NCBI GenBank assembly: GCA_016748015.1
Contig: JAAOMT010000502.1
Span: 376,519-440,518 of the forward strand
From: Geosiphon pyriformis
Lineage: Eukaryota > Glomeromycota > Glomeromycetes > Archaeosporales > Geosiphonaceae
DNA length: 64,000 nucleotides
Reading direction: 5' to 3'
A program made the translations under genes and the position numbers. How positions within the stretch are numbered: the stretch's first letter is position 1; each line of letters opens with the position of its first letter. Positions 769-64,000 of the stretch are shown here, piece by piece. The notes under the pieces were generated by a model, which did not search any database, was not told where the DNA came from, and saw only the letters and a list, made by a program, of their open reading frames with translations.

Positions 769-2300
769 ATGTCAATTTCAATTTTAAAACGATTTTCCAG
801 TGATATTAGCCTTATTCTAAAATTCAAAAAAGATTTTGATGTAATCATACAAGTGGGTGAATCACCAGATGAGGTTCGTACTTTTCATGCGCATTCATTT
901 ATCCTGCGCGCTAGATCTGCCTATTTCAATGTTGCCTTGTCGACTTGTTGGGCGGATAAGAAAGGCGATGTGTATTTTTTCAAGAAACCAAATATTTCTG
1001 CACGTGTCTTTGAGCTATTGTTAGGGTGATTATTTTTATATTTGTAAACAAAATCTTTTCTTCATTTCTTCAACATGTTTTAATCTTCAGTTTAACGGCT
1101 TTATCAATTAGATATATTTATACGGGAACAATTAAATTTACTAAACTCAAAGCCAAAGACCTCCTTGGTCTCTTAATCGCAGCTGACGAATTAATATTGG
1201 AAGAATTAATAGATAAAATTCAAAACTACCTTATAAATAACAAACCAACGCTAATTGATGAATACTTGATCGAAATCTTGAACAAAGTTATTTCACGTCC
1301 GACCTGCCAAAAATTACTGGATCACTGTCACGATGAGATAATTTGTCGCAATCCAAACACGCTATTTAAATCGAATTGTTTCTCAAAATTAGAGGAATGT
1401 ACCTTACAAACGATTCTTGAATTCGACGATTTGCCAATGAAAGAAATTGAGATCTGGGATCAGCTCTTAAATTGGGCCAAATTGCAAAATTCAAGTACGG
1501 ATAAGAAACCCGTAGAAGAGTTCACAACAATGGATTTTATTTCGGTTCAAAAGACACTTGAAAATCTTATACCATTTATAAGATTTTTTCAAATTAGCTT
1601 TGACGATTTCAACGAGAAAATTCTTCCATTTAATAAGTGCCTGTCACAGAAATTATTTTATGAAATTTTGAGTTTTCATATCGAAGGAAAGCCACCAAGC
1701 TCTTTCAAGATTCAACCTTCAAGGATTCCGGCAATCAAAATTAACTCAAAATTGCTCAAACCCAAACACGCAGCTTTACTGGCAACTTGGATGAAAATTG
1801 ATTCTCCAACTCGTGAAACGAACCAATTTGAAGTACCATATTCATTTCGTCTTTTGTATCGAGCAAGTGAAGACGAAGTCTCACCTAAAGCTTTTCATGA
1901 ACGATGTGACAAATCAGGACCAACAATCGTTGTCCTAAAGATAAAAAATAGCGAGCAATTAATTGGTGGATTTAATCCGATTGTAAATGGATGGAGGCGA
2001 AGATGGTTTTCTTCTATTCGTGGCATGGAGACTGGATTCCTTTTTTCTTTACATCAAACAAAGATTTTAGAAAACACAAGAATTAGTAAAGTTCGAGAAA
2101 ATTTCGTACATCAAGGGATTCATGATCATTTCAACGATGGAATTTGTTTCGGCTGTGGTCCCGATTTGTGGATTAATTTAAGGGATGAGAGAAGGGTCGC
2201 ACAAACGATCCAATCCACCTATGAATTTCCAGTGAGAGAGAGACGAGGGTTCTTTTATTGGGATGATTTGGAGGTCTTTGAGATTATGAAAAAACGTTAG
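769..2300 (+). CDS. BTB-BACK-TLDc domain protein
   Basis: Two exons, 769-1025 and 1112-2300, give 481 residues. The 86-base GT-AG intron joins LLLG to YIYTGTIKF, restoring the canonical end of a BTB fold (VFELLLGYIYTG), which is strong support for the splice. Domain order: BTB/POZ about residues 10-115 (FHAHSFILRARSAYF), BACK about 125-235, and TLDc about 295-478, ending in the typical GPDLWINL and FYWDDLEVFEI stretches. BTB domains dimerise and can bind cullin-3; TLDc domains are linked to oxidative-stress responses and V-ATPase binding. These are family properties and the cellular role of this copy is unknown. BTB-TLDc genes form a large family in Rhizophagus. The 3' part of this gene is copied at 62537-62834. 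A Tc1-type element sits about 1 kb downstream. Confidence 0.93.
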
Positions 2301-3497
2301 CATTAGAAAAATATTTAAGACCTTCATATAAATATATATCATCTATTGATAAATCATCATTTTAGTTATATGTAAATTAGTAGATATCTTAACATTTTAT
2401 AGTTAAATTTATACGCAACGGAGATTCAATTTTTAAATATTAGTTTTCATTTTTAAATTCAAATTGGAAACTTGACATTATAAAATATTTAATTTTTTAG
2501 AAAAAAGTGTAAATCATTAAATTTTTTGGCTTGAAATAAAAAAAATTAATATAGTGTTTGTGTGAATTTTTAATTTTATCAATTCATAATACGAAAAAAT
2601 TAGATTGGTTGGATTTTTTTAGATTCAGCATATTCTTGGAAGAAAATAAAAGACCTAAATTAAAATTTCAAAAATACTTTCATAAAAAAGACTTTTTATA
2701 AAGCAAGATTTTAAAAGTAGTTGATTGAACATAGATTGAAATTGGGTTATTTTTCTTGATCATTGCAAACAAATCAAAAAATATAATATTTTTTGACATT
2801 TTTAAATAAAATAAAAAGTTTTTTTTTTAAAAATTATATCAATTTTTTAATTTCATTTGAAAAATGCAGATAAATTTTTTCAAAACTCTTGTTCAAAAAA
2901 TTATTATAAACAGCCTTCACCTAACATTAATTTAAAAGCTTTACTGTTTAAAGCTTTTTCATATCAGCTTTTTATTTGCCAAGCATGATTATGAACTTAT
3001 CTAATTTAATCTCAAATACAATCTAACGAGAATCAAAGATAAGTTTTTTGAAAGCTTGAAAGACTTTGTTTGAAGTTCCAAAATGATTTTTATTTGCCAA
3101 TATATAATAGAAAATAGGTAACCCTTAAAAAATTTTATAAAATAATAATAAGTTTAAAAAATAAGAAACCTTTGATTTTTAAAAAAATATATTTTAAAAA
3201 ATAAAAATTTATAATTTATTAACGTTTATACTTATTATTTATTAATATTAAAAATCATTTCTTCATTTTCTTTTAATATATATTTTTATTATTATTACAG
3301 TCCTCCCGAAAAGTAATGGAGGGGTATTTTTTTTATACATAATAATTTCTGTTTAAATTTTAATATTTAATAGATATATAAGTAAAGAATATATATGCAA
3401 AAAATTAATATTTAGTATGTCCTCCTTTTACACTAATACAATCTTGAATTCGATTTTGCATACTAGTAATACAGTTAAGAATGGCCTCATTAGACAG
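2007..3497 (+). repeat. Segmental direct repeat, copy A
   Basis: This stretch is repeated in the same orientation at 62537-64000. It covers the last third of the TLDc coding sequence, about 1 kb of AT-rich 3' flank and the left end of the Tc1/mariner element. The copies are highly similar, with scattered substitutions and small indels: copy B lacks about 20 bases near 2440 and has an extra T-rich insertion just inside the transposon end. Copy B runs off the window, so the true length exceeds 1.46 kb. Confidence 0.95.
2301..3297. other. AT-rich 3' flank of BTB-TLDc gene
   Basis: No gene seen. Long A/T runs. The block is shared with 62835-63789 as part of the segmental repeat. It ends at the TA dinucleotide (3296-3297) into which the Tc1/mariner element inserted. 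Confidence 0.6.
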
Positions 3498-4516
3498 ATT
3501 ATTCCATTCTTCTTCTACTATTGTAATAAAAATCGCTTGAGAGATATTTTTTTGTGTGCTATTATTGCTTTGACTTTTTTCTCAACATTTCGTTTAAGAA
3601 TAGCCCAAATATTCTCAATTGGATTGAGATCTGGACTATATGATGGCCAAAACAAAACGCGATTTGGCAGTTGCATCTCAAGATCTGCGCGAACATCTTT
3701 TGAAGTATGCTTTGGATCGTTATCATGCTGGAAAATTCAACGTTGTCGTCCATATATGCTAGTTGCATTGTAATATAAATTCCCATTGAGAATTTTACGA
3801 TAAAGATGTCGGTCCATATTTTCTGTAAAGATGCACATTCCAACTTTTCCATATGCACAAATTGCTCCCCACATATGAAGTTTAAATGGATGTTTTAACA
3901 TTGGTGCAATAGGTTTACCCGAATGAGACCAAGCCAAGCAAGTATTTCGAAAAATTTGTAAAGTTGTTTCATCTGAAAATACTACTTTGCGCCAATTATA
4001 ATTAGAATGTTCTTGAGCCTATACTAATCGGTTTTGTTTGGGAGTAGAGGTACACGTCTTGGTAAAACAGCTGTATAAACAAGCCTAGAAAGTTCACTTA
4101 TTTCAATCTCAGGATATGTTTTTGCAAGTTGTGCCTTGATTTCAATTGCTGTAGTAAAGTGATTTAGATTTACGATTTTTCCAATCTGGCGATGCATTTT
4201 TGGTAAAGTTTTTCGTGGACGACCTGAACGATGAATTGCTCGAATTTGACCATTTTTACGAAGTTGTCCTATATATCGTTCACAAGAGCGAAGAGGAACA
4301 TTAGTTTTTCGAGATATTTCGGTTGGACTTCGATAACCTTGTTGCCAAAATCTCTTAACGACTTCACTATTGAATTTTACAGGATTATATTTCATTACAA
4401 GAAATAAATCACGTAATAGATCAAAATAATTTTGTTTAAATAATAAAAATAGTTAGCATGGAATGTATGCGCGTCCAAATTATTACCCAAAAAAATTACC
4501 CCGCCCGGGTGTACTG
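3298..4516 (-). mobile_element. Tc1/mariner-type DNA transposon
   Basis: About 1.22 kb element flanked by TA on both sides (3296-3297 and 4517-4518), as expected for Tc1/mariner target duplication. The ends form imperfect terminal inverted repeats: the left starts CAGTCCTCCCG and has GGGGTATTTTTT further in; the reverse complement of the right starts CAGTACACCCG and has GGGGTAATTTTTT further in. It carries one transposase gene on the minus strand, now disabled. The element lies between the BTB-TLDc gene and the HMG-box gene; its right end is only about 250 bases from the HMG start codon. A second copy of its left end is at 63790-64000. Confidence 0.92.
3405..4395 (-). pseudogene. Broken Tc1/mariner transposase
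   Basis: Starts at the ATG at 4395 with a helix-turn-helix N-terminus (SPTEISRKTNV, then GRPRKT) and ends with GGHTKY and TAA at 3405. Catalytic-type DDE landmarks remain readable: FSDETT, DNDPKHTS and SPDLNPIENIW. The reading is broken by a frameshift/deletion around 4024-4100 and by two in-frame stops that appear to replace Trp: TAG before AQEHSNYNW and TGA after YGRQR. Both can arise from TGG by one G-to-A change. The product would be non-functional, so any mobility would have to be supplied in trans. Confidence 0.9.
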
Positions 4517-4766: not shown

Positions 4767-5456
4767 ATGTTACCTCAAAATGATTCTCTTCAAGCCACTT
4801 CAGACACAATAAATGGGCTAATACAAATTCCATTTAAACCAACCTATCCACCTCTTCTTACTATCAATGACCTAATTCCACGAGTTACACGCAAGGGAAG
4901 AACCCCAACTAAGCCCCCAAATGCTTTTATCATTTATCGAAAAAACTACACGTCTGAGATTAAAGACAAAAAGATTTCAATTGACATGTCACAAGTTTCA
5001 TCAATTGTTGGTCAATTATGGAAGGAAGAAGCAGAATCCGTTAAGGATACATACAAAAAACTCGCTAGAGATGCAAAAGATATTTTTAATAAAAGATTTA
5101 ATTCAAACTATACTTCACTTGAAAACCCTCCTTTTGAACCTTTTAATCAGTTGGATACTCAAAATTCTGAAGACATTATGAACCCACTTCTTGACGAAAT
5201 GATTGTGACAGATCATACACCAGGAATCTTTACGCTAAATAATCAACCACTTTTACCATTGAACCAAAATCAATTCTTCACATCTATTCCTAATTCGAAT
5301 TTAACAGCTCAGAGGATTAACAGTCAAGGCCAAACAGAAAATCTTAGTGGAATTAACTCACTTTTATCTTTCATCATGCAATTGAAAGAAGAAAATGAAA
5401 AACTCAAGAAAGAGAATGAAACATTAAAGGAACTTCTTCAAACTAGGTTGGGATAG
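4767..5456 (+). CDS. MATA-type HMG-box transcription factor
   Basis: Single-exon gene of 229 residues. I place the start at the ATG at 4767 (MLPQND); the frame is open a little further upstream but without another ATG. The HMG box spans about residues 38-110, with the signature TPTKPPNAFIIYRK, the middle helix SSIVGQLWKEE, and the third helix YKKLARDAKDIFNKRF. This layout matches the MATA_HMG subgroup that binds DNA in fungal mating-type and sexual-development regulators. The C-terminus (about 198-228) is a Leu-rich coiled coil, LKEENEKLKKENETLKEL, suggesting dimerisation. MATA_HMG genes are strongly expanded in Rhizophagus, so membership does not prove a mating role. A Tc1 remnant lies in its upstream region. 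Confidence 0.92.
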   Translation: MLPQNDSLQATSDTINGLIQIPFKPTYPPLLTINDLIPRVTRKGRTPTKPPNAFIIYRKNYTSEIKDKKISIDMSQVSSIVGQLWKEEAESVKDTYKKLARDAKDIFNKRFNSNYTSLENPPFEPFNQLDTQNSEDIMNPLLDEMIVTDHTPGIFTLNNQPLLPLNQNQFFTSIPNSNLTAQRINSQGQTENLSGINSLLSFIMQLKEENEKLKKENETLKELLQTRLG

Positions 5457-18119: not shown

Positions 18120-18745
18120 ATTGATTATTATCTAGAACCGCTTCTTTGAGTATTAATGATGTGCCTATTTCTGCTGCGAAGCCTGAAGAGTTACATTATT
18201 ATTTTGGTATATTTTTGTCTATGGAAGACTTATCTAATTCCTGTTTGACAAAGGCATATTTTGATATCATGTTTTTTACGAATTTAGTTTTGAGAAAGGC
18301 AGTCTCTAATAAACAATTTCTTTATTTGGTTTCAGCTGTTTTACAATCTATTGTTAATTATAAGACCCAGCTTATTTTTATTTCTAAAAATGTTTGTAAT
18401 AAGTGAATTTTACTAGTGAGAAAAAGTTTGAAAGTTAAGAATAATTTATTTAGAGATTTTCTTAGTAATTCTTTGTATTATCTTTTGTTGTACAGTCTGA
18501 AGCCTTTTAAGCAGGTTTAAACCAAAAAAAATGGCTTTGGTGCTAATATTTTCAAATGCTAAAGGCATTCTTGACTGTTTGTTTGTTTACAGATTAATAA
18601 ATTTGCAGATCTCTATTGCCATTTCCTATAAAATTAAAAGTTAATTCTGTTAATAATTTTTTGGGTAATATAATAATTTTTTTGAAATACAATATTTCTC
18701 TTAACTATAATTTGTTTACTGCTTTTTATTTTAAGAATAAGATTT
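18120..18745 (+). mobile_element. LINE remnant (3' part of reverse-transcriptase ORF)
   Basis: Plus-strand fragment of the same LINE family as the element at 41150-47930. It reads FGIFLSMEDLSNSCLTKAYF, then NLVLRKAVSNKQFLYLVSAV, SKNVCNK, a TGA, VRKSLKVKNNLFRDFL, and after a short break FPIKLKVNSVNNFLGNI. These align with the segment of the long LINE at 43480-42900 on the other strand (HRYLDIFLLTDGLSKPSLAK, FVYLVFSVLQ, SKNVCLK, VNPSNNFLAG). The TGA falls at the same place where the long copy has TAG, a site that in relatives is probably Trp. No ends or tail visible; old and inactive. Confidence 0.85.
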
Positions 18746-38738: not shown

Positions 38739-41149
38739 AAAAAAAACACTCGAAATTTTTACATTTGGCTTGAGGCCTAATATTCCTATAAGCACCATGA
38801 CCCTTTATACTCACCCTTTAACTTTTTAAGAATTTCACAAGTAATCAAGCACAGATAAGTTTGATATACTTTTCCAAATGTTGTTTATGTTATTTAAAGC
38901 ATTTGTTCATCTAAATTTATACCACCCCATTTCTATTTATTTGACCTCATTTATTATGCTTCATGATGTTACGCATTCGCTGTAAAACCCGTTTTTTACG
39001 CTGTACTTTATATGATTTATGAAAATCCAAAATATAACTGACTGGATTTGATACCAGAAAAAAAAGATTTGCCAATCTAATTTAGTTCTACTAAAGAAAA
39101 CCAATGCCTTTTTTTGGCCTCGTGATTTTCATCGATACATGCAGTGTGTGAAAAATATTCAATAGTAAATTTCAAATTTAATGAAATTTTACCAAATCCA
39201 TTCAAAGACCAAATATCAAGGAATAAACTGCAAGAAATTTATTCCAATATTTCTGAGTCTCCGCCTATCTATTTAAAAACCAAATCATTCCACTATTTTT
39301 TATCAAAACTATCTTTAGCGTACATTTTTCCTGAATATTTTTAATAAAAAAGTTCTACATGTAATAAGAACCAATTTTTACAATGTAATCTCATATCATC
39401 AAGGGTTTATGCTGAAAATTGACACCATTCTAATCTTCCAGTCAGTATCAAAAAGAAACTATCTGATTCCAATATGTGAAGTTAATATATAGAATGTCTT
39501 GTATTCATTTATAAAAGATTTAACGAATATCAAAAGCATTGTTAGTTGTATTATATTTCTCAAATTGGGAGTTTTTATTAGAATATGTAACTGGAAAACT
39601 TTTAAAAAGAATCAGAATATTCTGGAAAGCAAATTTTAGTCCATAAATCGTTTCTGAATCTGTTTTTTGTATCAAAAGGCTCACGCAAAATTTTTTTGAA
39701 GGTATTCCACTTGCCTACCTATAATGGTGAAATTATTTAAATTTAAACTGATCCAAAAAAATGGTACATGTTAACACGGCAGTAAAAGAAGATTGTAAAA
39801 ATCCATTATGAGGAGTTTTAAAGTTATGTCTTGAGCAATTTTTGCAGAAAGTCGTGGAAAATTTTTAGTTTAGCAAGTTAAAAAACTGGAACTATTTTTT
39901 TTTGAAAGTTTATATAGGTTCAATGTGTCACTCATTTTCTCTCAGAGCTTTAAAACATAGTCTTATTGCAAAAAATATCCATTTACTTGTTTTTTTCAAG
40001 ACATTTCAATACATTAGGGTTTCTCATTTCTTTGAGGCGAGTCCTAAAAAGAAATGCTTTAAAAGCTGGTTCACTTTTATTTTCAATAATTAATTCATCA
40101 ATTCTACTAAAAAATACTTCGAGGCCAGCAACATTACTTTTTCAAAAAAATTTATAGACCCCATTTTTTGGTTTACTTATAATATTTTATGACGCATATT
40201 TTTTTCCTGCATACCAGCAACGAGTTTATTTGTATTAAGTCCCTAAATAATTTAAAGATTCTTTCGTCAATAACCGAAATATCTCTTGTTTATGAAACGT
40301 CTTTCATTTTTAATATAATAGCTCAGAAGATTTTGGGAATAACTCAACAGTGTGAAAAACTTTTCAGTAAAGGATTGGTTTGATTCATCATAACCATTAA
40401 AATAATTCGAAGAAAAAAAGTTTCCTTACATTATGGTGAAGACCCTTTATGACTTCAGTTCTAAATTTTACAATGTTTTCAAATCGCCAAGATTTGGGAT
40501 TAAAAAAGATGGGAATTGCTTAAAATGAAAAAAAATTTTCATCCCAGCAGAACTTTTATCATGAGCTGTCAGCTGATGTAACAAACATGGATGTACTTAA
40601 TTTCGATCTTTTTGTGTATTTTTTGGATTTGCTTGTTTCAAAAGATTATATCATTACTTGCTGAATAGAAAATGGTTAAAATGTTTGTGAAAGAAATGTA
40701 ACCTCCAATTATAATATAGCCTTAATCAAAATTAAGTACAAAAAAACAGTTTATTTAATGTTGACTTTTTGAGTATTTATTTTTTGGGATTAATAATTAG
40801 TAGCTCTTTATTTGATAGGGTAAAAACTTTAATATTTCAATTTCAATTTTTTTTTTTAAGAATTCCAAATATGAAGTATCAATTGTTTTGTTTAACATTA
40901 AAGACCTATTTTTTTGATTTTAAATTTATTAAAAATTAATATATTGAGATAAAGTTTTTCAAATCTAAATTCAACATGTAAATTAAATAAAATAATAAAG
41001 TAAATTAATTAATTGACAAAAAAATTGCAAATAAATTATTTACAGAGTATTAACTAAAATAATTAATTTAATATTTTAACTAGAAATTTTCAATAATTTA
41101 AATTGACCAAAATTTTAACCAATTATATTTTTTACAAAGCATAATTTTT
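38739..41149. other. Intergenic, no supported gene
   Basis: About 2.4 kb. Several 60-70-codon open stretches lack good starts and do not resemble known proteins. The right end becomes very AT-rich and abuts the A-rich tail of the LINE. Confidence 0.45.
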
Positions 41150-41293
41150 TTATTTTATTTTATTTTGTTTAACGAGTGCAGTCCAACCACTACCTAGTAT
41201 ACAGATGCAAGCTAAGTGAATCTAACTAAATATGGCTCATGTATTTGCTACATGTGACTAGCCACTCAAGCCAATCTAGGCAACACTACACAC

Positions 41294-44200
41294 CTACTTA
41301 AACTTTGATATTATCACAAATACCAAAAAAAAAAGACTAGTCTTGTGCAAACCAAAACTGATGGCAAACACTTCATTAATCCCAAGAAGATGAACAACTC
41401 CACTAGACAAATGTTTAATAGGATCAGCTAAAAAACCAACAGGAATTTCCGAAGTACAAACCAAACCACAATGTTCCATGTTCACTCTAAACTTAGCCCT
41501 GGTCAACCACAAACCACACCAGTGTTTTTCTGTCAGGCATCAAACAAAATCAGCCACCACCAAAACAGCCTGAGTATGATCTTTAAAATACACAGTAGCT
41601 TCATCAATCCATTTTCTTAGTACAAAGCCTTTATATAATTGCATATACACTCCTAAATCATAACAACTAGCAAGCAGAGTACACAACATAGAAAAGGACA
41701 CTGAAGAGCAGCCTATCAGCAATGACTTCCACAAAGTGATTCTGCCCAACAAAATATCAGTACACTTAATTGTCTTACTTCAACAAGTAAACACATAATC
41801 CGACAATTCAACATCACCACACATTAAACAGAGAACTCCAGGATAACATTTATCATACAATCTTTTATGAACAGCAACTGGTAACTTTTTATGGACCACT
41901 TTCATTAAGTAGATACGGAGTACAGCTAAAGCTTGGCTTGTAAAGCCTGACAACATGTGGGAGTCCGAGTGCCAAATTGAAGCCATATACTTCCAATCAA
42001 CTCTTCATCGATTACCACAGAGCCAAGACCAGCCTCCCATTGAGCACGACAGATAAATCTATAAATATTCTGAACAAAATATTGAGCATTGTCTAAGACA
42101 ACCTGACCATGAGTCATGATGTACCTTTTCCAAACACTTATAGGAAGAGACAAATTAGAGTGAGCAGTGTGCCAAGCCAAAGCATTGGCCTTGTCATTGT
42201 GAACATTACTCGAATGGCCCTTTACCTTCACCCATCCAACAGAAAAGTCCTTATCTTTGATCAACTTGTGAATATAATGCCTCTCCACCCAACATTTGTT
42301 CCTGAAATCAGGAGCAATTAAACCCAATTCTGAAGCACAAGCATTAATAGTAGCTTGACTATCGGTGTTAATAATAACTGAGCACGAAAAAGGAACACAT
42401 TCCAGCACCAGAATAACAGCATAAAGTTCAGCCATAGTAGAAGAAAGCAACCTATTGACCTCAATGCCAATACCCACATCAGCATCAGAAAAATAAGCTG
42501 CAGTCCCACCCACAACCTCAGCAGTGCCCAAATGAGACAGAGAACCATCAGTATACACTGTAAAGACATTGGACCAGAACTCATGTAAACACTCCCAAAC
42601 AACCAAATATCTTTTCGAATCAAAAAATTTTGAGCCACTAGAGACTGTGAACAGACCACCAGAGATGAGACGATAACTATCTATGTACGCAGAAACTTTG
42701 GAGTACCACAAGAGTACAGGACCCCTGGAACTTAGTCTCTTCCAGTGGCAAAAAGTCCTCTAACTGAGAACCGATCCATCTTTGCCCAATAACCTGTTAT
42801 CAAAGGCAACACCAAAACACTTTAAAGAGGGGACCACACCAAAATAAAAGGAGCTACTCAAGATTGCCAACACAGGGAAGTGACCAGCACCACAAAAAGC
42901 ACAAGGCAAATTGTTGGCCAGATATATATTATTGTCCAAAAAAATTTTAATCATACCAGCGAGAAAATTATTAGAGGGATTAACCCTCAACTTAACAAAA
43001 TGTCACAAGGGATTTAACGGAGCCCACCTTAATATCTGGAGATCCAAAAAATGGTATTCAAACAAATGCCCCAGAATACCAGGCACATTTGAGAACCAAA
43101 CCAATAAAGCCACCTTTTCTTTAGCCTGAATCTGTTCAAAAGTTTTTACACCATAAAAAGAAAGATGATGTAAAGCTTTACTGGGAAAATCTCGAAACAA
43201 GTTTGCTTTAGATTTAAGACCCTTCCTCAACATAACATCCTATTTCAAGCAGACATTCTTAGAAACAAAGCTGAATTGTGTGCAATAGCTGACAATGGGT
43301 TGCAGAACTGAAAACACTAAGTACACAAATTGTTTATCTATCAAAGCCTTCCTGAGAATCATATTAGAAAAAAACCTGACATCTAACTGAGCTTTGGCTA
43401 AACTGGGCTTAGACAACCCGTCTGTTAACAAGAAAATGTCTAAATATCTATGAGTCTTACCCTGTTTAGCAATAGAGATAGATAGTCTATTAATATGCAG
43501 AAATGCATTTGAAATTCTTTTGTTGATAGAAATCACCACAGTCTTTTTACTGTTAATTGTGATATCATTGACCTTAAAAAATTCGCCCACAATATCCAAG
43601 ATATGTTGTGTCAACACTTAACCATTACCAATTTAGATAGTATTATCTACAAATGCATCTGCCGCAAAAAATGAAAACTGACTACCACTAGACTCAATTC
43701 TGCCAGATTTCGCTACAAAGTTGGTATTGATTCTGTAACCATATAAATGTTCATGATTCTTAACCTCACACAACAAAGGGTCATAAAAAATCTGCCACAA
43801 GAGAGGAGAGAAGACCTCTTTTTGATCCAAACTATCCAACACATTGTATCCATTCAAGAAGCCAAAATCAGTCATCACTCTATTAATCCTGCCTACATGT
43901 AAGTTTTCGAAAAACGACACAAATCTGTCACACATTTTGATCCACTTCAAACTGGCTTCCAACTGTCATCAACCAACAGAATCATAGGTCTTATACATAT
44001 CCTGCAATACCAACCAGACCTCCCTATTTTTTTCCAGAGCATCTTCCATGATTGAACCAACAGCAAAAACTGGAGATTGAGTAGAAGTACTTTTCAGGAC
44101 TGAGAAATTGTCACCTCAGAGAACATCAAATCTGGAACAGACTGAAGAAATATGATCAGACAATAACTTAGATAGTATCTTTCTAGCCATCTCAATTAGC

Positions 44201-45957
44201 ACAATGGGCCTTGTATTTGTAAGAATGCCATCCCATTCATATGGTTTGGAGATCATAGAAACCCAAGCTTTTTTTCAAAGGACCAGAACCTTACTGATAT
44301 TTAGGCAAGAATTCAAAAGACTCAACAAACACTCAAGCATATTATTACCACAATGTTTCTATAGTTTGTTAGAAATGCCAGACAGGCCAGCCACTTTGCC
44401 ATCAGGTAGATTCAAAATCACATTCACCAATTTACTAAAACAAATGTCATTCATAACATCAGAGAAGGCATCATCTCTCACATAATCCAAAGGTGCATAT
44501 TGGTGAGCCTATCTGAAAGGCATTACCAAAGGTGCTACACACTTCCTTGTTCAGTCAACCATAATACTGTTGACCCTGCTTTTCACCTTAGTTGGATCCA
44601 AAACCAGTTCATCGCCTATGACCAAGTGATCTAAAACGACCTTACAAAAAGACTGCTCCAAAATACTCCAAATCATGCCACCTTTGTTAGAACTGAAATT
44701 CTCCATGTGTTTATTGATAGCACTCTGGATTGCTGTATCCCTCACCACTCTGGATTTATAATACTTAGACTTCCTATAACTCTTCCTAACCTGAAACAGA
44801 TGTTTGAAAACCTCCACCAAATCAGCCCCATTTTAAACCAAAAAATCAAACTTGAAAGCCTCTTTATAATTGACCAAAAACCACCTCTTGATTAGACAAT
44901 TATACTTATGTTTATCACCTGTATTTAAACTTTTGATGACCTTAGCCACCAACAATTCAAGTTCAAGGAATCTAGACAAATGTCTGTTTTTTAAACAGTC
45001 AAATTCGCTAAACCAGTGCCTAGAAAATATTGCATCAGCGGCTCTCACCATAACTCCACACAACACATCTCACATCTCATCCAGATCACTGAGAACCTTA
45101 GCACTCAAGAAACCACTTATGACCAAGGACAAAGCAGCTGACACATTATCCTTAAATCATAACCATTTGGAAAGGTCAGCATCCTTAAAGTCAAACTTCC
45201 ATCTGTTTCTGTTGGTCTGTTTACGAATACTGTTTATCTGAGCATCAAGAAGACCCTCCAATCCAACTGAAACTGAAATCATCTTATGATTTATGTTGAA
45301 AAACTCTAAAACTGCGCCAATATCTCATTTCATCAGAGTAGAGACTAAATTTTCACTGACAAAAATATAATCAATAACTTTTTTCACACTTCTGGAGTTG
45401 CTCTATATAGGTGAACTAGCCAAAAAATGTCCTTTGAAAGAGTTAACAAGACCCAGATCTGTGCATTTTCTGAGACTAGTATTTTTCTTGGTGTTTGATT
45501 CATTGAAGTCCCCACCCAAGATAACAAAAGAGCTTGAGTTAATAGCACTAATAATCAAGGAGTTAACCACAAGAGCCTGACCAAAACGTACACCAGCAGA
45601 TGCACCTGCATAGATACCCAAGATAGTAATTGAAAGTTTGTTCTTGAACAAGAGCTGAATCGAAATCAACTGACCAGAGATCTCATCAATTTTTAAAACA
45701 TGCTGAACCACAAAAGAGTTTATAATAACAGCCACACCAGCACCAGAAGAATCTGTATCAAAACCTGACATGAAAATGCAAACACCAAGAAACTTATTCA
45801 TGATCCATGGCTTAATGCCAGATTTTAACTTCATCTCTGTAATGATAGAAATATCACTTTCAGAATTCATGTGCCATCTAACTATATCGTCCTGTTTGGC
45901 AGGAACGTTTATGCCCTTCACATTACATGTCGCAATTCTCCAAACCAAACTGGTCAT
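41294..45957 (-). pseudogene. LINE ORF2: endonuclease, reverse transcriptase, RNase H
   Basis: The ATG at 45957 overlaps the ORF1 stop. Endonuclease: RIATCNVKGINVPAKQDD, IITEMKLK and ILGGDFNESN (about 45950-45420). Reverse transcriptase (about 44600-43250): LPDGKVAGLSGISNKL, LTNTRPIVLIEMARKILSK, and the active-site strand AFVDNTIWIGN, where the expected second Asp of F-x-D-D is Asn. RNase H (about 42550-42150): YTDGSL, MAELYAV, NTDSQATINA and the final HNDKANALA, all catalytic acids present. A Cys motif CLMCGDVELSDYVFTC follows. By hand I count about 16 in-frame stops (mostly TGA and TAG) yet the frame itself is kept from 45957 to about 41990, where one frameshift occurs; the tail continues in the new frame to 41294. 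Confidence 0.92.
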
Positions 45958-47854
45958 TGAGATAAAGAAGATACCACAGAGCCTGAGCCAGCACACAACT
46001 GATCTAACTTCTCTAATACCAAACAAACCAAAGCTTCAAGAGCCATCAACTTCAATTCTAAACAGCCCACTTTTAAAGTCAAAACTTTTGAAGTACTCAA
46101 ACCCAAATTTGAGACACCAGAGGATACCAAAAAGGGAGAAATAACTACAGGCTTAGAATTATTCAGAACCATATCCAAACCAAATCCAATATTTGCCGTA
46201 ACAGGGACAACTAAGGACTGAGAAGAGGAGGCAAGAGCCAAGGGCACCAGGTTTAAATTGTCAAGTTTGTTTACAATACCAGACACCTTATCTGAAAGAA
46301 GTTCCAAAAAATGCTCCAAAGAAGCAAGACAAGTCTTCAAAAATGAATAAACAGGAACCACAGAAGACAAATGACCAACCATACCTGAGGCATCAGAAGA
46401 GGAGCCAAAACCAGAACCAGAACCAGAGTAAAGACTATTAGATAAAGATACCAGAGAGACAACCTGAGCCCATGACTTGCCACCAAATACAGCTGGTCGA
46501 GAAATAGACACACTCTTTTTTGCATACAGCTTGGCCAATTGGAGGCAGTTCTCATCAGAGACAACCCTTTTAAATGACTTGGAAAGTTTGGGAGAAGTTG
46601 AGATTTCAGCATCACACTTTAGAACAGAATGACCATGTTTTCCACACTGTTTACACTGAACCAGGTCCAATCTAGTCCAAGAAAGTTTCACCTCACTAAA
46701 AATAGGCTCCATACAAAATGTAGACTCCAATAGCTCGTTATTCTCAAAACAAACCACAGCACAATGAACTCTATTACAAATGTCTAAGGATCAATTTATG
46801 ACACAAGTTTTCTCACCAGCTCTTGCCAAAAAATCACCAAGATCATGAACCATTGTTTCTACTGGCAAAGTAAACAAAAGCACCTTATACCAATCTCTAG
46901 ATGCCCATGTCTCACAATTCCCCACAGCTTTGGCCATGCACACTGAATTTTTTCCGATAAAGAACGACCACTTAGCTGCCAACTGATCAGTTTGACTTGA
47001 TTCGGCAAACTTCACCACAGCCTTCTGCCATATTCCAATCAGCTGAATTTTAATTGACTTAATTTCTCCAAACATAGATACTGCGGTGACAATCATTTCT
47101 TTAAGTGTGTCCATGGGAATTTTTTTGATTACCACAGCCCAATCTGAATGCATTCCTTGTCTTTTGAAATCAGAGTTTACAATGATGTTGTTATCTTTGG
47201 CCAATGAGGTGGCTTTTTCCATGCTTGCTTCAGAGGTGAAGGTAGATCTGATAATTCTTTCAAATTTTGAGGGGGTAGTGGCTCCCCCAAAACCATTGAT
47301 TTCTGAAAATAATTTTCTTATGATCTGAGTTTTGGCCGTTGCCGATTTTCCTTCCACAGCCAAAAGATTGATGTCCAAAGTGAAAGATTTTTTCACAGCT
47401 ACTTCTACCTGAGTTTTAATGATTTTGGGATCAATCCATGTCTTATCCAAAGAGAAAGACTTATGGAGGAGAAGAAAAACCTTTTCTTTCTCCTCCATGT
47501 TGTAATTAATAGAGCCGAGGGGGGAGCCAATAATCGCACTATTATTGAAACACTTGGCTTGGGGTGTATTCATTTTGGAATTAGATACTCCTTCACCTTC
47601 AGAAGTCTCCTCATCAGTATCCATATTATTAAACTGTCCAACCACTTAACCAGACCCACTACCTTTAAGAGTCACACCATTATTTGAGAGCTTAGCACCA
47701 CCGGAAGGTTTCTTGATCTTGTGACTTGAACTATTACCAACTGAACCAGAAGTTGGAACTCTGGTCGATCTTTTTTTAGCACCAGTACCACTCATGGGAG
47801 CAGCCAGTTCAACAACAAAAGGATTTGGGTCTTGTAAAGTGTTGGAAGACAGTA
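45954..47854 (-). pseudogene. LINE ORF1: zinc-knuckle nucleic-acid-binding protein
   Basis: Readable from about 47854 (LSSNTLQDPNPFVVELAAPM), with an internal ATG near 47796 (MSGTGAKKRSTR), to the TGA at 45954. One frame throughout, broken by TAA at 47646-47648 and TGA at 46791-46793. Contains the knuckle CKQCGKHGHSVLKC (CX2CX4HX4C, near 46640) and a Ser/Leu-rich C-terminus. ORF1 proteins of this type bind the LINE RNA as a chaperone. The stop TGA is embedded in CAATGA, whose ATG is the ORF2 start. Confidence 0.9.
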
Positions 47855-49704: not shown

Positions 49705-51498
49705 TCATTGTAACAATAATGAACAATATCTTACATGGTCGAGATTGACTAGGACTTTACGAGGTTAGATTAAGTCAAAGAACAAACAATAAAACATCAA
49801 ACTCAGCTGAATTATTATTTTTAGGTGAGCAAAGAATACTATTTATAATAAATTAATAAAAATATATATATATGTTAATAGATTGAAATAAATTTAATAA
49901 ACTTTATAACTAATATATAATATAAACTTTGTAATATATGTCATGAAAAGATCAACTAACTAATAAAATTAAATTATCAATAGTCGTAGTCGTTGTCTAA
50001 AGTAAAATAAAAAGTATTATTGATCAATTGCTCATACTGTAATTATATTCTCAATTTTTTTCAACTTCTTACTTTCAGGTAAATTGAAAAAGTTTTTTTA
50101 AAAAGTAAAGGAAATTAAATATAATACTGTATAATAATTAAAATCAAAGAATCAATGAACATATAAAAATAGATAAACTAACCTTCAGAAAATTCATTCA
50201 TTTTCAAAGTTAAAAGACGACTTGTATAAAATATTTTTTTGATGAATTGTTGTTGTTGTTGTCGTTGTTGAGTAATTTTTTGTCGCGTTGTTCTTCGACA
50301 TTTCTTTTATATAGTTTTCTGATTCTAAAAACTGGGAACACATAATTTTAGAAACTTCATCATCCTCATACAAACCCATAAGCTCATACATTTCCTCAAT
50401 TTCCTACAACTTATCCTTAACTTCTTCCGCAGTAGGACGATTTTCAGGATTAACATCCCAACACTTTACAATAATTTTAGCAATTGAAGGTGGAATAAGT
50501 GGGGAGATAATTTCAGGTTTAATACCCTTAGAAACAATATTTAATATGAGAGTATTATCATGAGGACGGTCACGCAAAGGAGGCCTTCCGGTTGATAATT
50601 CCCATAATAACATGGCAAAACTATAAATGTCTCCAGCCGTTGTAAACTTTTCTCCTCTTATAACTTCTGGTGGAATGTATGAATCCAGTCCAAATATTCC
50701 TTTTTTCTCCTCTGTTGTTGTTGCTTTATGGACATAATCCGAGGTCTCCAATTTTTACGTCATAAGAGCTTAATTAAAGGATGTTGCCCGAGTGTAGGTC
50801 ATGATGAACCATACCAGAAGAATGAATTGAATTAAGTCCTTCAGCTATATTTAATGCATGTCTCCATTTTCAGCAAACTCCATCACAATTCCATACTCGA
50901 ATATTTAACTATAAATATAATGTAGAAAATTAAATAGATAATGTATAGTAAATAAATAATAGGTAAATATGAATTAAACATAAATATAAATATAAATATA
51001 AATAATCATACTTTGTTTACCTCTTTAAACAGTTCTGAACTGTTCCTTTTTATAATTTTATTGCAATTTCATCAATCTTTTTTATAAAGGTATCAGTTCT
51101 TCCTCTTTTATATTTCATTTCACCATTACTCTTATACTATATGGATTAATTAATCCATCAATTTGGGTTGCTTCATAAATTATACCGAATCCTCCTCTAC
51201 CAATTTCCTTGATATTCGACAAACGCTCCCATGGAATCCATTCATAATAATTAATTCTACCATTACACATGCTACTATTATAATCTTAATTATTAGGTGG
51301 AATATAAATTGGATTCTTAATTATTTCATCGACTACTTTATTGCCACTTGAAAAGTTGTGGTAAAGTTTTTCAAAAAAAATAAACTGGCATGCAGCGCAG
51401 TAATTCACCCAATTTCTTAGAGTAATGTTTTGACACGATTTACATTCGTTGCAATCATGTGTTTCTGGACGAGTTCCTTTAATTTCTTTGTTTTCCAT
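49705..51498 (-). repeat. Left arm of kinase inverted duplication
   Basis: This arm is the reverse complement of 53210-55172, with moderate divergence. Landmarks: ATCTTACATGGTCGAGATTG and GACTAGGACTTTACGAGG near 49728-49765 match, in reverse, CAATCTCGATCATATAAGAT and CCTCATAAATTCCTAGTC near 55115-55160. The kinase exons lie between. The intron repeats also correspond (ATAAATATAAAT runs at 50983-51003 here, TATTTATATTTA runs at 53687-53711 there). Similarity fades beyond the start codons, leaving a 1.7-kb spacer. Confidence 0.88.
49978..51498 (-). pseudogene. Disabled copy of Cys-leader TKL-type protein kinase
   Basis: Starts at 51498 with MENKEIKGTRPETHDCNECK and KNPIYIPPNN, then stops at 51286 before the kinase domain. 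Later parts survive in other frames: GRGGFGIIYEATQIDGLI (about 51200), a catalytic loop reading VHHDLHSGNI where the intact paralogue has VHRDLHSGNI (about 50800), then YIPPEVIRGEKFTTAGDIYS to NRPTAEEVKDKL (50404-50700), a Thr-repeat tail, and LDNDYDY with a stop at about 49978. Several frameshifts and stops, plus the Arg-to-His change in HRD, indicate a pseudogene of the gene at 53210. Confidence 0.88.
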
Positions 51499-51559
51499 GA
51501 TGTGGATAAGGGCGGATAAGTACGAATAAGTACGGATAAAGTGCGAATAGGTTATTATG

Positions 51560-53209
51560 AGAATGTTGAAAAAATGGAGGTTTTCTTTAAAAAGCTTTAT
51601 TATATAGTACGATCAAAGGTAATTTTTAAAGGGGAAGTTCATATTTATATTTTTTCTCTATCTTCCTTAATCTTAAAAATGTCTATTCATTAAACTATTA
51701 TTCGCTGGAAATAGGTTTTATATATAGAGTAGTAGTACACAAAAACGTCAAACAAATTTCACATGGCGTAATTGTATTTTTTGCCTAAACGATTTTTTCA
51801 ATTTCTTTATAGAACAACAATAATAACAATAACAACAACAAGGCATGAGAAATTTAAAATTTAAATGTGATTCTATGCGTAAAATAAGTTAATTTAATTT
51901 ACTTAATTGCTGAAAACCATTTCATAATTTTAGAAATTTTAAATTGATCAGGCGTTATGATTCTATTGATCAAAAAATTTAAACCATTTTAACATATTAA
52001 ATTCAAACCTGTTTTCTATCAAGCAGAAGTTTAGTAATGGATGTGTATTATTGATCAAAAAAAATATTTACTAATCCTGCTATTAATCATTTTAATCATT
52101 ACACTACCATTTGATAAATTAATTTGACGTTTCAGTAAAAAATTTTATATATGTAAGAAGCTCTTGTTTTTACTTTTATCTTAAGAAATATATTGGAACA
52201 TAATCTTAAAAAATTTTGAAGTTTCATAAAAATATTATATTATATATAATTAAACTTTACTCAGAAATTTTTAGATAATATAATTTGTTTTAAAATATAT
52301 TATGATGGTTGAATTTTTTTATTTTAAAAATAAAATAAATTTCAATATTATTTATTACTTTAACCAAAAAATTTAATTAACTTTGAGTATTTTTAAAATT
52401 ACAAATACTTTTGAATTTTATAAATCAAAAAATTTTAAAATTTATTATTAATTTTTTTTTTGAAATGATAAATATAAACAAAATTTTATATTAACAAAAA
52501 TATTATTAAACTGATTTTTTATAATGAAAAATTTCAATTTTTTTCTTGTTTACACGGTGTAATCCAACAACTAACTATTTTCGTACACGTGATCAGCTAC
52601 TTTCGTATAAGAGTGATTACTTTGACTTTTTGTCTTTTCTAACATTAATTAAGGTTTAACTCTAATCATTGTCTTGGATTAAAAATATAAAGAATATCGT
52701 TACTCTATGTAATCTCAGTAGAGATTTAACTGATGTTTTCCTCAATGGAAGATTCGAATGAAATATGATTATAATTAATTTCAATAAGGGAATATTAAAT
52801 TCGAGAGGGGAGGGGCTAAAAGCTAATTAAAGTTAGAGAATTAGATTTTATCAATCTAAGATTTCTAATAATTGAATTATAGTTAGTTAGTCTATATGCA
52901 ATACCAAATGCAATTTACAATTTATGGAAACTCTGAGCAAAAAATATATTTAGGCTGATTCCATACAGATTTCCTTCCTTTAATAGTAATTCTCATGCTA
53001 AGCTTATTTGAAAGTGTTGGGATCTCAATCCTATAATAGTATGATTGATTTGTAGCGAAGACTATGCAAACATAGAGAAAAAAATAACATAAAGAAGAAC
53101 TCGCCTTTAGACAAATTACTTTTTAAACCTACTATCAAATAAACCCTTTAAAGAAACCCTCAAGAATAATAACTTATTCACATTTTATCATTTGTCCTTT
53201 ATTCACACC
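51560..53209. other. Spacer between inverted kinase copies
   Basis: About 1.65 kb between the start codons of the two head-to-head kinase copies. It should contain the promoter of the intact gene at its right end. AT-rich, with no gene and no clear motif. Confidence 0.45.
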
Positions 53210-54918
53210 ATGGAAAATAAAGAAATTAAAACAACTCGTCCATATGCTCATGATTGCAATGAATGTGAAGAATGTCAAGAGAGTATTCTAAATAATCAAG
53301 AGAATTTGTGTAGAGCATGCTGGTTCTTATTTTATGAAAAATTTTATAAGAACTTTTCAAGCGGCAATGAAGAAGTTGATGAAATAATCAAGAATCCAAT
53401 CTATATTCCACCTAATAATGAAGATCGTGAATTTTGGAGTGGTGATTTGAATCACTATCAATGGATTCCATGGGAACTTTTGTCGGATGTCAACGAAATT
53501 GCTAGAGGAGGGTTCGGTATAATTTATAAAGCAACCCTAATAGATGGATTAATTGATCCCACTACTACAAAACATCATGGTTCAATAGAATATCAGAGAG
53601 CTGAATATACCAAAGGGGCGGACGTAGCAATAAAAATTATATCAACGAACAGTTCAGAAGTGTTCAAAGAGGTAAAAAAAACTATTATTATTTATATTTA
53701 TATTTATATTTAATTCATATTTACCTATTAATTATTTAATTCTTTACTGTATATATTATTATCATTTATTTACCTTTTTACACTATGTTGATAGTTAAAT
53801 ATTCAAAGAGCTATGTCTATTAAGCTTCAGTCCTTAAAATGTATCGCTAAAATATGGGGGATTACGCAAAACCCTGAAACACTCGAGTATGGAATTGTGA
53901 TGGAGTTTGCCGAACATGGAGACTTGCGAAAGTATATATCAAAAAATTTTGATTCTGCGAGTTGGTTTGAAAAATTAAGGACCGCGATTGATATCGCTGA
54001 AGGACTTGTTGCAATTCATTCGTCTGGTTTGGTTCATCGTGACCTACACTCGGGCAACATCCTACAAGTAAATGATTCTGGTGTATCAATTGGAGACCTC
54101 GGATTATGTCAACCAATAAACAATGGAGCAACAACAACAGAGAAGAAAGAAATATTTGGAGTGATTCCATACATTCCACCAGAAGTTATAAGAGGAGAAA
54201 AGTTTACTTCGGCTGGTGATATATATAGTTTTGCAATGTTATTATGGGAATTGGCAATAGGAAGGCCTCCTTTTCATGACCGTCCTCATGATAATACTCT
54301 CATATTGAATATTGTTTCTAAGGGTATTAGACCTGAAATTATCTCCCCACTTATTCCACCTTCAATTGCTAAAATTATTGTAAAGTGTTGGGATATTAAT
54401 CCTGAAAATCGTCCTACTGCGGAAGAAGTTAAACTGAAGTTGGAAAAACTTGATTATGCATTTATACGGTTTACAGATGAATCGTCAATGATAGAAGACC
54501 TTATGGATGAAGAGTATATAGATGAGGAGTTTAAATATGAAGAGGCAATAACTGTGAATCGCCAGTTTTTAGAATCAGAAAACTATATAAAAGAAATGTT
54601 GAAGAACGACGCGACAACAAATGTTCATTCAGGAGCATTTTATACAAGTCGTCTTTTAACTTCGCAAACGGATGAATTTTCTGACGGTTAGTTTATCTAT
54701 TTTTATATTTATTGATTTGATGATTTAATTATTATTATACAGTATATTAAAATTTTACATTTAATTTCCTTTACTTTTTAAAAAGACTTTTTCAATTTAC
54801 CTGATGGTAAGAATTTGAACAAAATTGAGAATATGTGTAATTGATCAATAATAACACTTTTTTATTTTACCATCTATTAGATTTAGACATAAGTTTAGAC
54901 GACGACTTCGACTATTGA
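53210..54918 (+). CDS. TKL-type protein kinase with Cys-rich leader
   Basis: Four exons, 53210-53671, 53795-54686, 54786-54806 and 54881-54918, encode 470 residues. I start at the ATG at 53210 (MENKEIK). The leader has Cys16, 19, 22, 34 and 37 (CNECEECQ, CRACW), likely a zinc ribbon, a pattern I associate with the expanded Rhizophagus kinase family. Kinase domain about 95-370: IARGGFGIIYKA glycine loop, Lys in VAIKII, VHRDLHSGNIL (Asp237), DLG in place of DFG (IGDLGLC, Asp255), PPEVIRGEKFTSAGDIYSF and CWDINPENRPTAEEV. The tail is acidic and ends in SLDDDFDY. All residues for catalysis are present. Substrate unknown. The last two exons are tiny and rest on splice consensus and the match to the tail of the left-arm copy. 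Confidence 0.88.
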
Positions 54919-55172
54919 TAATTTAATTTTAATCTTTTCATAACTGACATATATCCTAGGTAAGCTTTATTATATTACAAATTTTTTACGATATTAGTTA
55001 TAAAGTTTATTAAATTTATTTATTATATATATAATTTTATTAATATTAACTTATTATATAATATTATTTTTTATCACCTAAAATAATCAATATTTTATCA
55101 TTTGCTCGTTCAACCTCATAAATTCCTAGTCAATCTCGATCATATAAGATATTGCTCACAATGAAACATACC
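53210..55172 (+). repeat. Right arm of kinase inverted duplication
   Basis: Counterpart of 49705-51498 in opposite orientation. Similarity continues past the kinase stop codon through about 250 bases of 3' flank, so the duplication unit was the whole gene plus downstream DNA, not a processed copy: introns are shared. Confidence 0.88.
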
Positions 55173-62536: not shown

Positions 62537-62837
62537 TTCGTTTTCTTCAATTCGTGGCATGGAGACGGGATTCCTTTTTTCTTTACATCAAACAGAGATT
62601 TTAGAAAACATAAGAATTAGTAAAGTTCGAGAAAATTTCGTACATCAAGGGATTCATGATCATTTCAACGATGGAATTTGTTTCGGCTGTGGTCCCGATT
62701 TGTGGATTAATTTAAGAGATGAGAGAAGGGTCGCACAAAAGATCCAATCCACCTATGAATTTCTAGTGAGAGAGAGACGAGGGTTCTTTTATTGGGATGA
62801 TTTGGAGGTCTTTGAGATTGTGAAAAAACGTTAGCAT
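62537..62837 (+). pseudogene. TLDc 3' gene fragment
   Basis: About 90 codons equal to the last part of the BTB-TLDc gene at 769-2300 (GMETGFLFSLHQTEILENIR to EVFEIVKKR, TAG), open and with only a few substitutions, but without BTB, BACK or the first half of TLDc. No start context of its own. It could only be expressed by fusion to upstream sequence. Confidence 0.9.
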
Positions 62838-63789
62838 TAGAAAAATATTTAAGACCTTCATATAAATATATATCATCTATTGATAAATCATCATTTTAGC
62901 TATATGTAAATTAGTAGATATCTTAACATTTTATAGTTAAATTTATACGCAACGGAGATTCAATTTTTAAATTCAAATTAGAAACTTAACATCATAAAAT
63001 ATTTAATTTTTTAGAAAAAAGTGTAAATCATTAAATTTTTTGGCTTGAAATAAGAAAAATTAATATAGTGTTTGTGAATTTTTAATTTTATCAATTCATA
63101 ATACGAATAAATTAGATTGGTTGGATTTTTTTAGATTCAGCATATTCTTGGAAGAAAATAAAAGACCTAAATTAAAATTTCATAAATACTTTCATAAAAA
63201 GACTTTTTATAAAGCAAGATTTTAAAAGTAGTTGATTGAACATAGATTGAAATTGGGTTATTTTCCTTGATCATTGCAAACAAATCAAAAAATATAATAT
63301 TTTTTGACATTTTTAAATAAAATAAAAAGTTCTTTTATAATTTCATTTGAAAAATGCAAATAAATTTTTTCAAAACTCTTGTTCAAAAAATTATTATAAA
63401 CAGCCTTCCCCTAACATTAATTTAAAAGCTTTACTGTTTAACGCTTTTTCATATCAGCTTTTTATTTGCCAAGCATGATTATGAACTTATCTAATTTAAT
63501 CTCAAATACAATCTAACGAGAATCAAAGATAAGTTTTTTGAAAGCTTGAAAGACCTTTTTTTGAAGTTCCAAAATGATTTTTATTTGCCAATATATAATA
63601 GAAACTAGGTAACCCTTAAAAAATTTTATAAAATAATAATAAGTTTAAAAAATAAGAAACCTTGATTTTTAAAAAAAAATATTTTAAAAAATAAAAATTT
63701 ATAATTTATTAACGTTTATACTTATTATTTATTAATATTAAAAATCATTTCTTCATTTTCTTTTAATATATATTTTTATTATTATTTCA

Positions 63790-64000
63790 GTCCTCCCGAA
63801 AAGTAATGGCGGGGTATTTTTTTATTTTTATTTTTTTTATACATAATAATTTCTGTTTAAATTTTAATATTTAATAGATATATAAGTAAAGAATATATAT
63901 GCAAAAAATTAATATTTAGTATGTCCTCCTTTTACACTAATACAATCTTGAATTCGATTTTGCATGCTAGTAATACAGTTAAGAATGGCCTCATTAGACA
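63790..64000 (-). mobile_element. Second copy of Tc1/mariner left end (truncated by window)
   Basis: Begins CAGTCCTCCCG and continues into the transposase 3' end as at 3298-3497. The flanking target TA has become TT, and an extra T-rich insertion lies at about 63825. Because the flanking DNA is also shared with copy A, this is a duplicate of the same insertion, not a separate transposition. Confidence 0.9.

Follow-up and report, generated by a model that had tools for sequence, protein, structure and literature searches.

LINE copy W and its reading frames

The window analysed here, a stretch of 64,000 nucleotides of Geosiphon pyriformis (Glomeromycota; assembly GCA_016748015.1, contig JAAOMT010000502.1, positions 376,519 to 440,518 of the forward strand), carries on its minus strand a near full-length retrotransposon copy, hereafter W, in which a long reading frame has been kept through many stop codons. 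As judged from its sequence, the reverse transcriptase and RNase H of the second open reading frame (ORF) and the A-rich 3' end identify W as a long interspersed nuclear element (LINE), that is, a non-long-terminal-repeat (non-LTR) retrotransposon. Its features are the following.

41141..47854, minus strand: near full-length LINE copy W, with ORF1, ORF2 and a 3' region with an A-rich stretch
45957..47645, minus strand: ORF1, with a weak RRM match below the cut-off, a CCHC-type zinc knuckle recognised by eye and one internal TGA (46793)
41929..45957, minus strand: ORF2, with RVT_1 and RNase_H over the cut-off, an endonuclease below it, and 17 in-frame stops from 45405 to 42762
43966..43971, minus strand: TGA-TGA pair within ORF2

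With the stops read as X, ORF2 matched the Pfam profiles RVT_1 (7.3e-8) and RNase_H (1.4e-9), both over the cut-off, and weakly Exo_endo_phos (6.6e-4, below it). The first-pass annotation had set the element at 41294-47854; the element continues past 41294, as indicated by an A-rich stretch at 41170-41141 and by a similarity of the 3' flanks of LINE copies that extends to about 41023, so that the exact 3' end would lie between about 41141 and 41023. Over 41294-47854 the observed/expected ratio of CpG (CpG O/E) is 0.20 and the GC content 38%, the window as a whole having 29% GC by base counts.

As had been proposed, ORF2 keeps a single frame from 45957 until about 41993, where a 13-bp length difference ends it; these 13 bases are absent from W and from two other copies (L002 and L007), and 13 of the 17 copies compared with W have them, while two further copies (L012 and L017) have larger deletions around this position. 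The internal stops are nine TGA, five TAG and three TAA, so that the TGA and TAG numbers given earlier were right, and the total of about 16, with two TAA, was one too low. The TGA-TGA pair noticed near 43970 lies at 43971 and 43968, the first codon being TGG in all 17 other copies and the second CAG in 10, TGG in five, CAA in one and TAG in one.

Origin of the stops

A DNA search of the genome (124.7 Mb, 406 contigs) gave at least 48 matches to the LINE, from which W and 17 near-full-length copies at 83-87% identity were taken; the second piece of the copy on contig C83 and more distant or short matches were left out. If the stops had arisen by directed C-to-T change, as the first-pass annotation proposed, they should fall on tryptophan, arginine or glutamine codons of related copies, and all 17 stops of W do so. 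The commonest codon in the other copies is TGG at 12 of these sites, CAA at three and CAG at two. Columns with a mixture of CGG, CAG and TGG, or of CGA, CAA and TGA, point to an older, CpG-containing arginine codon. Across the 18 copies, which have between 7 and 17 in-frame ORF2 stops each, 190 of 193 stops are located in columns where TGG, CAG, CAA or CGA is the most frequent sense codon. Such columns make up only 68 of 1319 codon columns. A single substitution would also produce a stop in 335 further columns, yet only three stops were found outside the 68; the placement of the stops is therefore more than chance.

Mutation spectrum in three transposon families

The LINE copies were compared with two other families. 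An LTR-type retroelement, chosen because its reverse transcriptase region was free of stops, is present at no fewer than 40 genomic places at 91-100% identity, of which 16 copies at 91-96% were picked to span that range and added to the query, L018; its ORF is the following.

L018:244-3204 (G000:C238): ORF of the LTR-type retroelement, 986 aa, with reverse transcriptase, RNase H and, upstream of the reverse transcriptase, a dUTPase domain (PF00692, 6e-25)

The third set consisted of the copy of a Tc1-like DNA transposon in the window and 10 of at least 47 matches to it. Changes were counted as near-private if 80% or more of the remaining copies shared a base, and they were polarised by the commonest base, a procedure that undercounts sites mutated in most copies.

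The 18 LINE copies rendered 2543 near-private changes in ORF2, namely 2122 C>T/G>A, 284 A>G/T>C and 137 transversions. The corresponding figures were 1055 changes (988, 36 and 31) in 17 LTR-type copies and 403 (301, 34 and 68) in 11 Tc1 copies. Thus, transposons of three unrelated types share a decay dominated by C>T. The pairwise transition:transversion ratio was 28.75 in the LTR-type copies (136 pairs) and 16.75 in the LINE (105 pairs among 15 of the 18 copies, the gappy L012, L015 and L017 being omitted), and in the LTR-type copies C>T at non-CpG sites is roughly 70-80 times as frequent per site as transversions. The tree of the LINE copies is star-like, with 1.57 of a total length of 1.74 in terminal branches. 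Indels amount to 0-5 events per LINE copy, measured against W. In the pairwise comparison the LINE gap counts omit columns absent from W, so that insertions relative to W go uncounted there. One gap event was found per 120 substitutions in the LTR-type copies, compared with one per 15 in a set of protein kinase paralogs and one per 7 in three Tc1 copies that are described below; indels therefore look rare in transposon copies because C>T is greatly inflated. The outcome that would have spoken against directed mutation, transversions and indels as common as C-to-T changes, is thus not what was observed, both being far rarer.

The decay had also been described as occurring almost only by nonsense transitions, and this does not hold: the near-private changes in ORF2 are similar across codon positions (887, 750 and 906 at the first, second and third), which rules out a nonsense-specific mutation. 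The stops are a by-product of general C>T/G>A change. Errors of reverse transcription, or editing of cDNA, were likewise ruled out by the near-equal per-site rates of C>T (0.103) and G>A (0.096) in LINE ORF2, by an excess of G>A of only 1.3 times in the LTR-type copies, and by the similar behaviour of a DNA transposon.

An old fragment of a related LINE is found in the window at 18230-18538, within a CpG-poor stretch, and is 65% identical to 43416-43106. Compared with W it shows 64 transitions and 45 transversions in 309 aligned bases, which indicates that the C>T signature fades at high divergence.

Sequence context of the changes

The first-pass annotation had suggested a count of transitions by dinucleotide context, and this count, run on aligned copies, rendered CpG as the hottest context, followed by a cytosine preceded by a pyrimidine (YpC), with no preference for CpA. 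The fraction of CpG cytosines hit was 0.253, 0.379 and 0.307 in the LTR-type, LINE and Tc1 copies, respectively, and that of non-CpG cytosines 0.068, 0.128 and 0.132, a 2.3-3.8 fold difference across the three families. In spite of this, 61% (LTR-type), 84% (LINE) and 67% (Tc1) of C>T changes lie at sites scored as non-CpG; since the CpG/non-CpG split was made by the commonest neighbour base, old CpGs lost in most copies are scored as non-CpG, which inflates these shares, probably most in the LINE.

At non-CpG sites, the ratio of the rates at YpC and RpC (cytosine preceded by a purine) was 2.19 in the LTR-type, 1.65 in the LINE and 1.96 in the Tc1 copies, in each case above all 5000 site permutations, the largest permuted values being 1.31, 1.17 and 1.52. 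Non-CpG cytosines with a T at the second base downstream mutated at about 1.6-2.0 times the rate of those with an A there, again in all three families. No raised rate was found in the CHG context in the three families. The rates at CpA, CpC and CpT were 0.066, 0.077 and 0.063 (LTR-type), 0.133, 0.147 and 0.105 (LINE) and 0.133, 0.173 and 0.108 (Tc1), so that CpA always lies between CpC, the highest, and CpT.

Spatial arrangement of the hits

INDEPENDENCE of hits was assessed at distances of 1-1500 bp with 40 shuffles that preserve site and copy totals, in 16 of the 17 LTR-type, 15 of the 18 LINE and 7 of the 11 Tc1 copies (without the gappy L012, L015 and L017, the partial L035 and L051, and the three Tc1 copies mentioned above). 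For non-CpG hits, the number of pairs, be they on one strand or on opposite strands, was 0.90-1.11 times that expected in the LTR-type copies and 0.93-1.03 times in the LINE copies, that is, with no same-strand or regional clustering in this test, and 0.97-1.19 times in the small Tc1 set (z between -2.4 and 2.4). Only when CpG was included were opposite-strand hits 1-5 bp apart depleted, in the LTR-type (0.75, z -5.3) and LINE (0.80, z -6.4) copies, the depletion being absent in the seven Tc1 copies (1.09). This would be expected if, once a CpG has been hit, the cytosine on its other strand is no longer a target; CG has become TG or CA more than TA in these two families.

The YpC context resembles that of APOBEC3 and also dipyrimidine targets, and the signature could in principle be produced by a single-strand DNA cytosine deaminase of the APOBEC/AID type or by ultraviolet (UV)-type damage. 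In line with this, two counts of CC>TT doubles per family lie above a simple expectation in the LTR-type (13 against 7.7 and 17 against 13.4) and Tc1 copies (14 against 6.3 and 16 against 8.9), the LINE having 43 against 49.2 and 98 against 93.3. However, once copy load is allowed for, adjacent same-strand doubles are near expectation (0.96 LTR-type, 0.95 LINE, 1.13 Tc1), by which tandem CC>TT damage is ruled out, and the unclustered hits in LINE and LTR-type copies speak against both patchy bursts and a deaminase that acts processively on single-stranded DNA. Moreover, a deaminase or UV would leave the CpG excess unexplained, and a DNA transposon is hit while other tested DNA of the window is not. 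Of the deaminase families, PF14441 was the one searched; its profile gave no match anywhere, which for that reason says nothing on absence. We regard this explanation as highly improbable.

Sequences that escape the changes

The window offers several sequences with which the transposon copies can be compared.

2006..3496, plus strand: arm 1 of a segmental duplication, control
62540..64000, plus strand: arm 2 of the segmental duplication, control
53111..54700, plus strand: gene for a protein kinase that belongs to a large family of paralogs, non-transposon control (53111-54450 aligned)
3500..4480, minus strand: Tc1-like DNA transposon copy exempt from the C>T process, CpG O/E 1.14, internal control

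The arms of the duplication (1.45 kb) are direct and about 60 kb apart, and their identity is about 98% in the aligned bases, or 94% if gaps are counted; their 27 differences in 1446 aligned bases are 14 transitions and 13 transversions, with seven gap events. Eleven kinase paralogs (the window copy and 10 of at least 80 matches) have a transition:transversion ratio of 0.80 (55 pairs) and a CpG O/E of 0.65-0.90. The Tc1 copy at 3500-4480 has near-private changes of which two are C>T/G>A and 17 are of other kinds and, together with L042 and L043, makes up an exempt trio with a ratio of 0.70 (three pairs) and a CpG O/E of 1.14-1.27, as compared with 0.07-0.91 in the other eight Tc1 copies. Twelve other stretches tested in the window have a CpG O/E of 0.84-1.14, against 0.20 in the LINE. 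In a map of 1-kb bins, all seven LINE bins (41001-47001) are at 0.06-0.27, and six non-LINE bins (starting at 5001, 13001, 18001, 19001, 29001 and 39001, with a GC fraction of 0.12-0.28) are also below 0.5. Among the sequences tested, the C>T process follows particular transposon copies and skips some; it is neither genome-wide nor set off by every duplication. It should be considered that the kinase control is under selection, leaving one duplication and three Tc1 copies as the remaining controls.

A mutation bias towards AT throughout the genome, under which transposons merely decay neutrally, would agree with the AT-rich composition of the window, but it is contradicted by the ratios of 0.7-1.1 in non-transposon duplicates and exempt Tc1 copies and by the CpG O/E values of the kinases, the exempt copies and the window stretches, unless selection masks the bias in kinase genes; it can hardly be the explanation.

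Spreading of the process from the LINE was approached with the flanks of 14 copies (28 flanks, L066-L093) and the two flanks of W. The unmasked flanking DNA of the copies is AT-rich and has a CpG O/E of 0.20-0.35 up to a distance of 1.5 kb, with values below 0.5 in 23 of the 27 flanks that could be scored, and the flanks of W have 0.81 (5') and 0.56 (3'). The CpG-poor flanks share repeats and may be old transposons, so that they lend no support to spreading.

These controls also bear on classical repeat-induced point mutation (RIP), a premeiotic, homology-triggered and RID-dependent C>T change of any long enough duplicated DNA. The dominance of C>T, the targeting of repeats and the retention of the frame all correspond to RIP, and a RID gene has been reported for the clade of arbuscular mycorrhizal (AM) fungi (PMC8298701). 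On the other hand, the 1.45-kb duplication has no C>T excess and the 11 kinase paralogs are spared, although it is possible that no sexual cycle has taken place since the duplication, and the kinase genes are under selection. Further points of disagreement are the lack of a CpA preference and of clustering in LINE and LTR-type copies. The usual thresholds of the RIP indices are 0.89 for TpA/ApT and 1.03 for (CpA+TpG)/(ApC+GpT); the LINE has 0.76 and 1.40 and the rest of the window 0.83 and 1.31, so that the classical indices fail to flag the LINE. Two heavily decayed Tc1 copies do reach a high TpA/ApT (0.94 and 0.93, with 1.29 and 1.34 in the second index), a point in favour of RIP, which we nevertheless consider improbable.

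DNA methyltransferase loci

A search for RID- and Dim-2-like methyltransferases had been proposed as well, and a PF00145 profile search of the genome gave 10 matches, among them a DIM2-like locus on contig C355 and a DNMT1-like locus on C96. At the C355 locus, the N-terminal exon matched exclusively DIM2 chains in the PDB (9baq, E 3.6e-8); 9BAP, 9BAQ and 9BAZ are described as DIM2 in PMC11315935. The locus also matches DNMT1-RFD (4.4e-5, over the cut-off) and DUF7893 (3.2e-19), with two weak BAH matches (0.0013 and 8.9e-6) below the cut-off, and its methyltransferase exon is closest to DIM2 (5.2e-13), with DNMT1 close behind (1.1e-11). The order of these exons suggests that they form one gene. 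With a replication-foci domain, a DIM2-type N-terminal region and a C5-methyltransferase domain, C355 is a DIM2-like methyltransferase locus. C327 matches DIM2 and DNMT1 about equally, and C307 and C346 resemble DNMT2 in their motifs. Contig C318 carries two similar methyltransferase loci about 32 kb apart, L019 (C318:788280) and L022 (C318:820713), with stretches in which there are stops that may be introns; the two loci are possibly RID/Masc1-like candidates, and BAH was not matched in the one exon of L019 scanned.

Proposed methylation and deamination of transposon copies

The directed C-to-T mutation proposed in the first-pass annotation, by methylcytosine deamination or by a RIP-like process, is supported by the spectrum, by the placement of the stops and by the controls; as to its cause, CpG deamination alone does not account for the data and strict RIP fits them poorly. 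The best explanation, to which we assign a probability of roughly 0.6, would be CpG and non-CpG cytosine methylation of transposons followed by poorly repaired deamination. Methylation would extend over the whole of a transposon copy; it would be strong at CpG and weaker at other cytosines, among which those with a 5' pyrimidine would be preferred. CpG methylation would probably be kept by a DNMT1-like enzyme, and non-CpG methylation at YpC would probably be due to a DIM2-like enzyme. The methylcytosines would then deaminate singly and independently over long periods, with poor repair of the T:G mismatches, so that C>T/G>A outpace transversions and indels and that TGG, CAG, CAA and CGA become stops while the frame survives. 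We infer methylation as the cause, the assignment of enzymes to contexts, the intactness of the genes and the poor repair.

Data from Rhizophagus irregularis, if it may be taken as a relative, leave room for non-CpG methylation. According to PMC8298701, 32.5-49.5% of its cytosines are methylated as measured by liquid chromatography-mass spectrometry (LC-MS). In PMC8647823, methylated CG sites number 2,876,042 and make up 13.8% of genomic cytosine, and 30.8% of CpGs are given as highly methylated; if both figures hold, much of the 5-methylcytosine (5mC) must be non-CpG. The nanopore methylomes described in PMC8647823 and PMC10234402 called CG only.

Several observations weigh against this explanation. 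The very high excess of C>T over transversions calls for poor repair or for an active step, given that methylcytosine deamination in animals produces a smaller excess than 70-80 fold. G>A (0.085 per site) is somewhat above C>T (0.065) in the LTR-type copies. As a clock test, C>T was compared with other changes, and the two are proportional in one family alone, the LTR-type copies (Pearson 0.82, Spearman 0.72), where the choice of copies is partly responsible; the respective values are 0.58 and -0.02 in the LINE and 0.14 and 0.13 in Tc1. A cruder runs test of the LINE gave 18 z-scores from -3.19 to +0.53, combined by hand to about -2.7, a weak same-strand tendency that does not appear in the shuffle test. 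In-frame stops, which may be introns or decay, occur in the DIM2-like methyltransferase stretch of C355, and one C355 exon with a weak BAH match had no match in the PDB. Finally, YpC corresponds to neither of the DIM2 preferences named in PMC8016269, which are CpT in Neurospora and CpA in Zymoseptoria.

An active step is the core of another explanation, in which C would be converted to T in heterochromatic repeats during mitosis, either by a methyltransferase of the DIM2 or RID type or by a partner of it, as proposed for Zymoseptoria tritici. The overall outcome is that of Z. tritici with functional Dim2 (PMC8016269), and both the presence of a DIM2-like locus and the very high ratio of C>T to transversions would favour it. 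The contexts differ, however, CpG being the hottest here and CpA being below CpC in all three families, and we hold such a mutator to be unlikely, if worth keeping in mind.

Relation to known systems

The closest known system is this Dim2-dependent mitotic mutator. In Z. tritici with functional Dim2, more than 95% of mutations are C>T and more than 95% lie in 5mC regions, arising during mitosis; more than 98% of the C>T changes affect CpA, with no high rate of mutation at CpG (PMC8016269). Alike are the confinement of C>T to transposons (5mC regions in that fungus) and the DIM2-like locus found here. In Z. tritici the process does not depend on sex. The contexts differ, CpA being hit in that fungus, whereas in Geosiphon CpG is the hottest context, then YpC, with CpA not preferred. 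RIP, as known from Neurospora crassa and other Ascomycota, also kills repeats by C:G to T:A changes with their length kept; it differs in that the non-transposon duplicates tested here are spared, the context is another, the two larger families have no clustering and the LINE does not trigger the indices. The decay of methylated CpG in vertebrate or plant transposons shares with our data the depletion of CpG and, in LINE and LTR-type copies, the conversion of CG to TG or CA over TA, and differs in the large share of C>T at sites scored as non-CpG (61-84%) and in the preference for YpC.

A scan of 1,239 fungi found strong recent signatures in 130 species of four ascomycete classes, and trace activity in 105 further genomes, whose classes are not named in that section (PMC12543289). 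RIP-type signatures are also known from Basidiomycota, according to a 2026 review (PMC13297926). For Gigaspora margarita, PMC8647823 and PMC7082362 cite the genome paper to the effect that RIP was not found. Among the top matches of most searches in an open library, which lacks most subscription papers and preprints, none described a comparable C>T spectrum for Glomeromycotina. There is about an even chance, in our estimation, that the process represents a transposon-directed cytosine mutator outside Dikarya, in an AM fungus, that works without sex, leaves a CpG plus YpC signature as a record of non-CpG methylation and disarms transposons, in a genome where large gene families would be tolerated owing to the exemption of duplicated genes.

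Were this so, the transposons would hold a record of non-CpG methylation that is invisible to CpG-only methylome studies, and the process would reconcile the very high total 5mC of R. irregularis with its limited CpG capacity. Strong C>T change to which gene families are not subject would also help to explain the disarming of transposons alongside gene expansion in transposon-rich AM fungi. Standard RIP indices can miss the process, and so may scans of AT-rich k-mers, since CpA is not the context and the GC content of the LINE (38%) is above that of the window (29%).

Other observations

Two patterns of small-subunit (SSU) rDNA, one of them meant to be universal, had no exact match, and rDNA may be missing from the assembly. 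A short Tc1 remnant is located just beyond arm 2 of the duplication, outside the window (G000:C114:440522-440686). The window also contains a BACK-TLD gene, which, like the large kinase family and the base composition, would agree with an origin in Glomeromycotina. There is, besides, an inverted pair of kinase-region stretches (49720-51664 and 53069-55158), about 73-74% identical and belonging to a large family.

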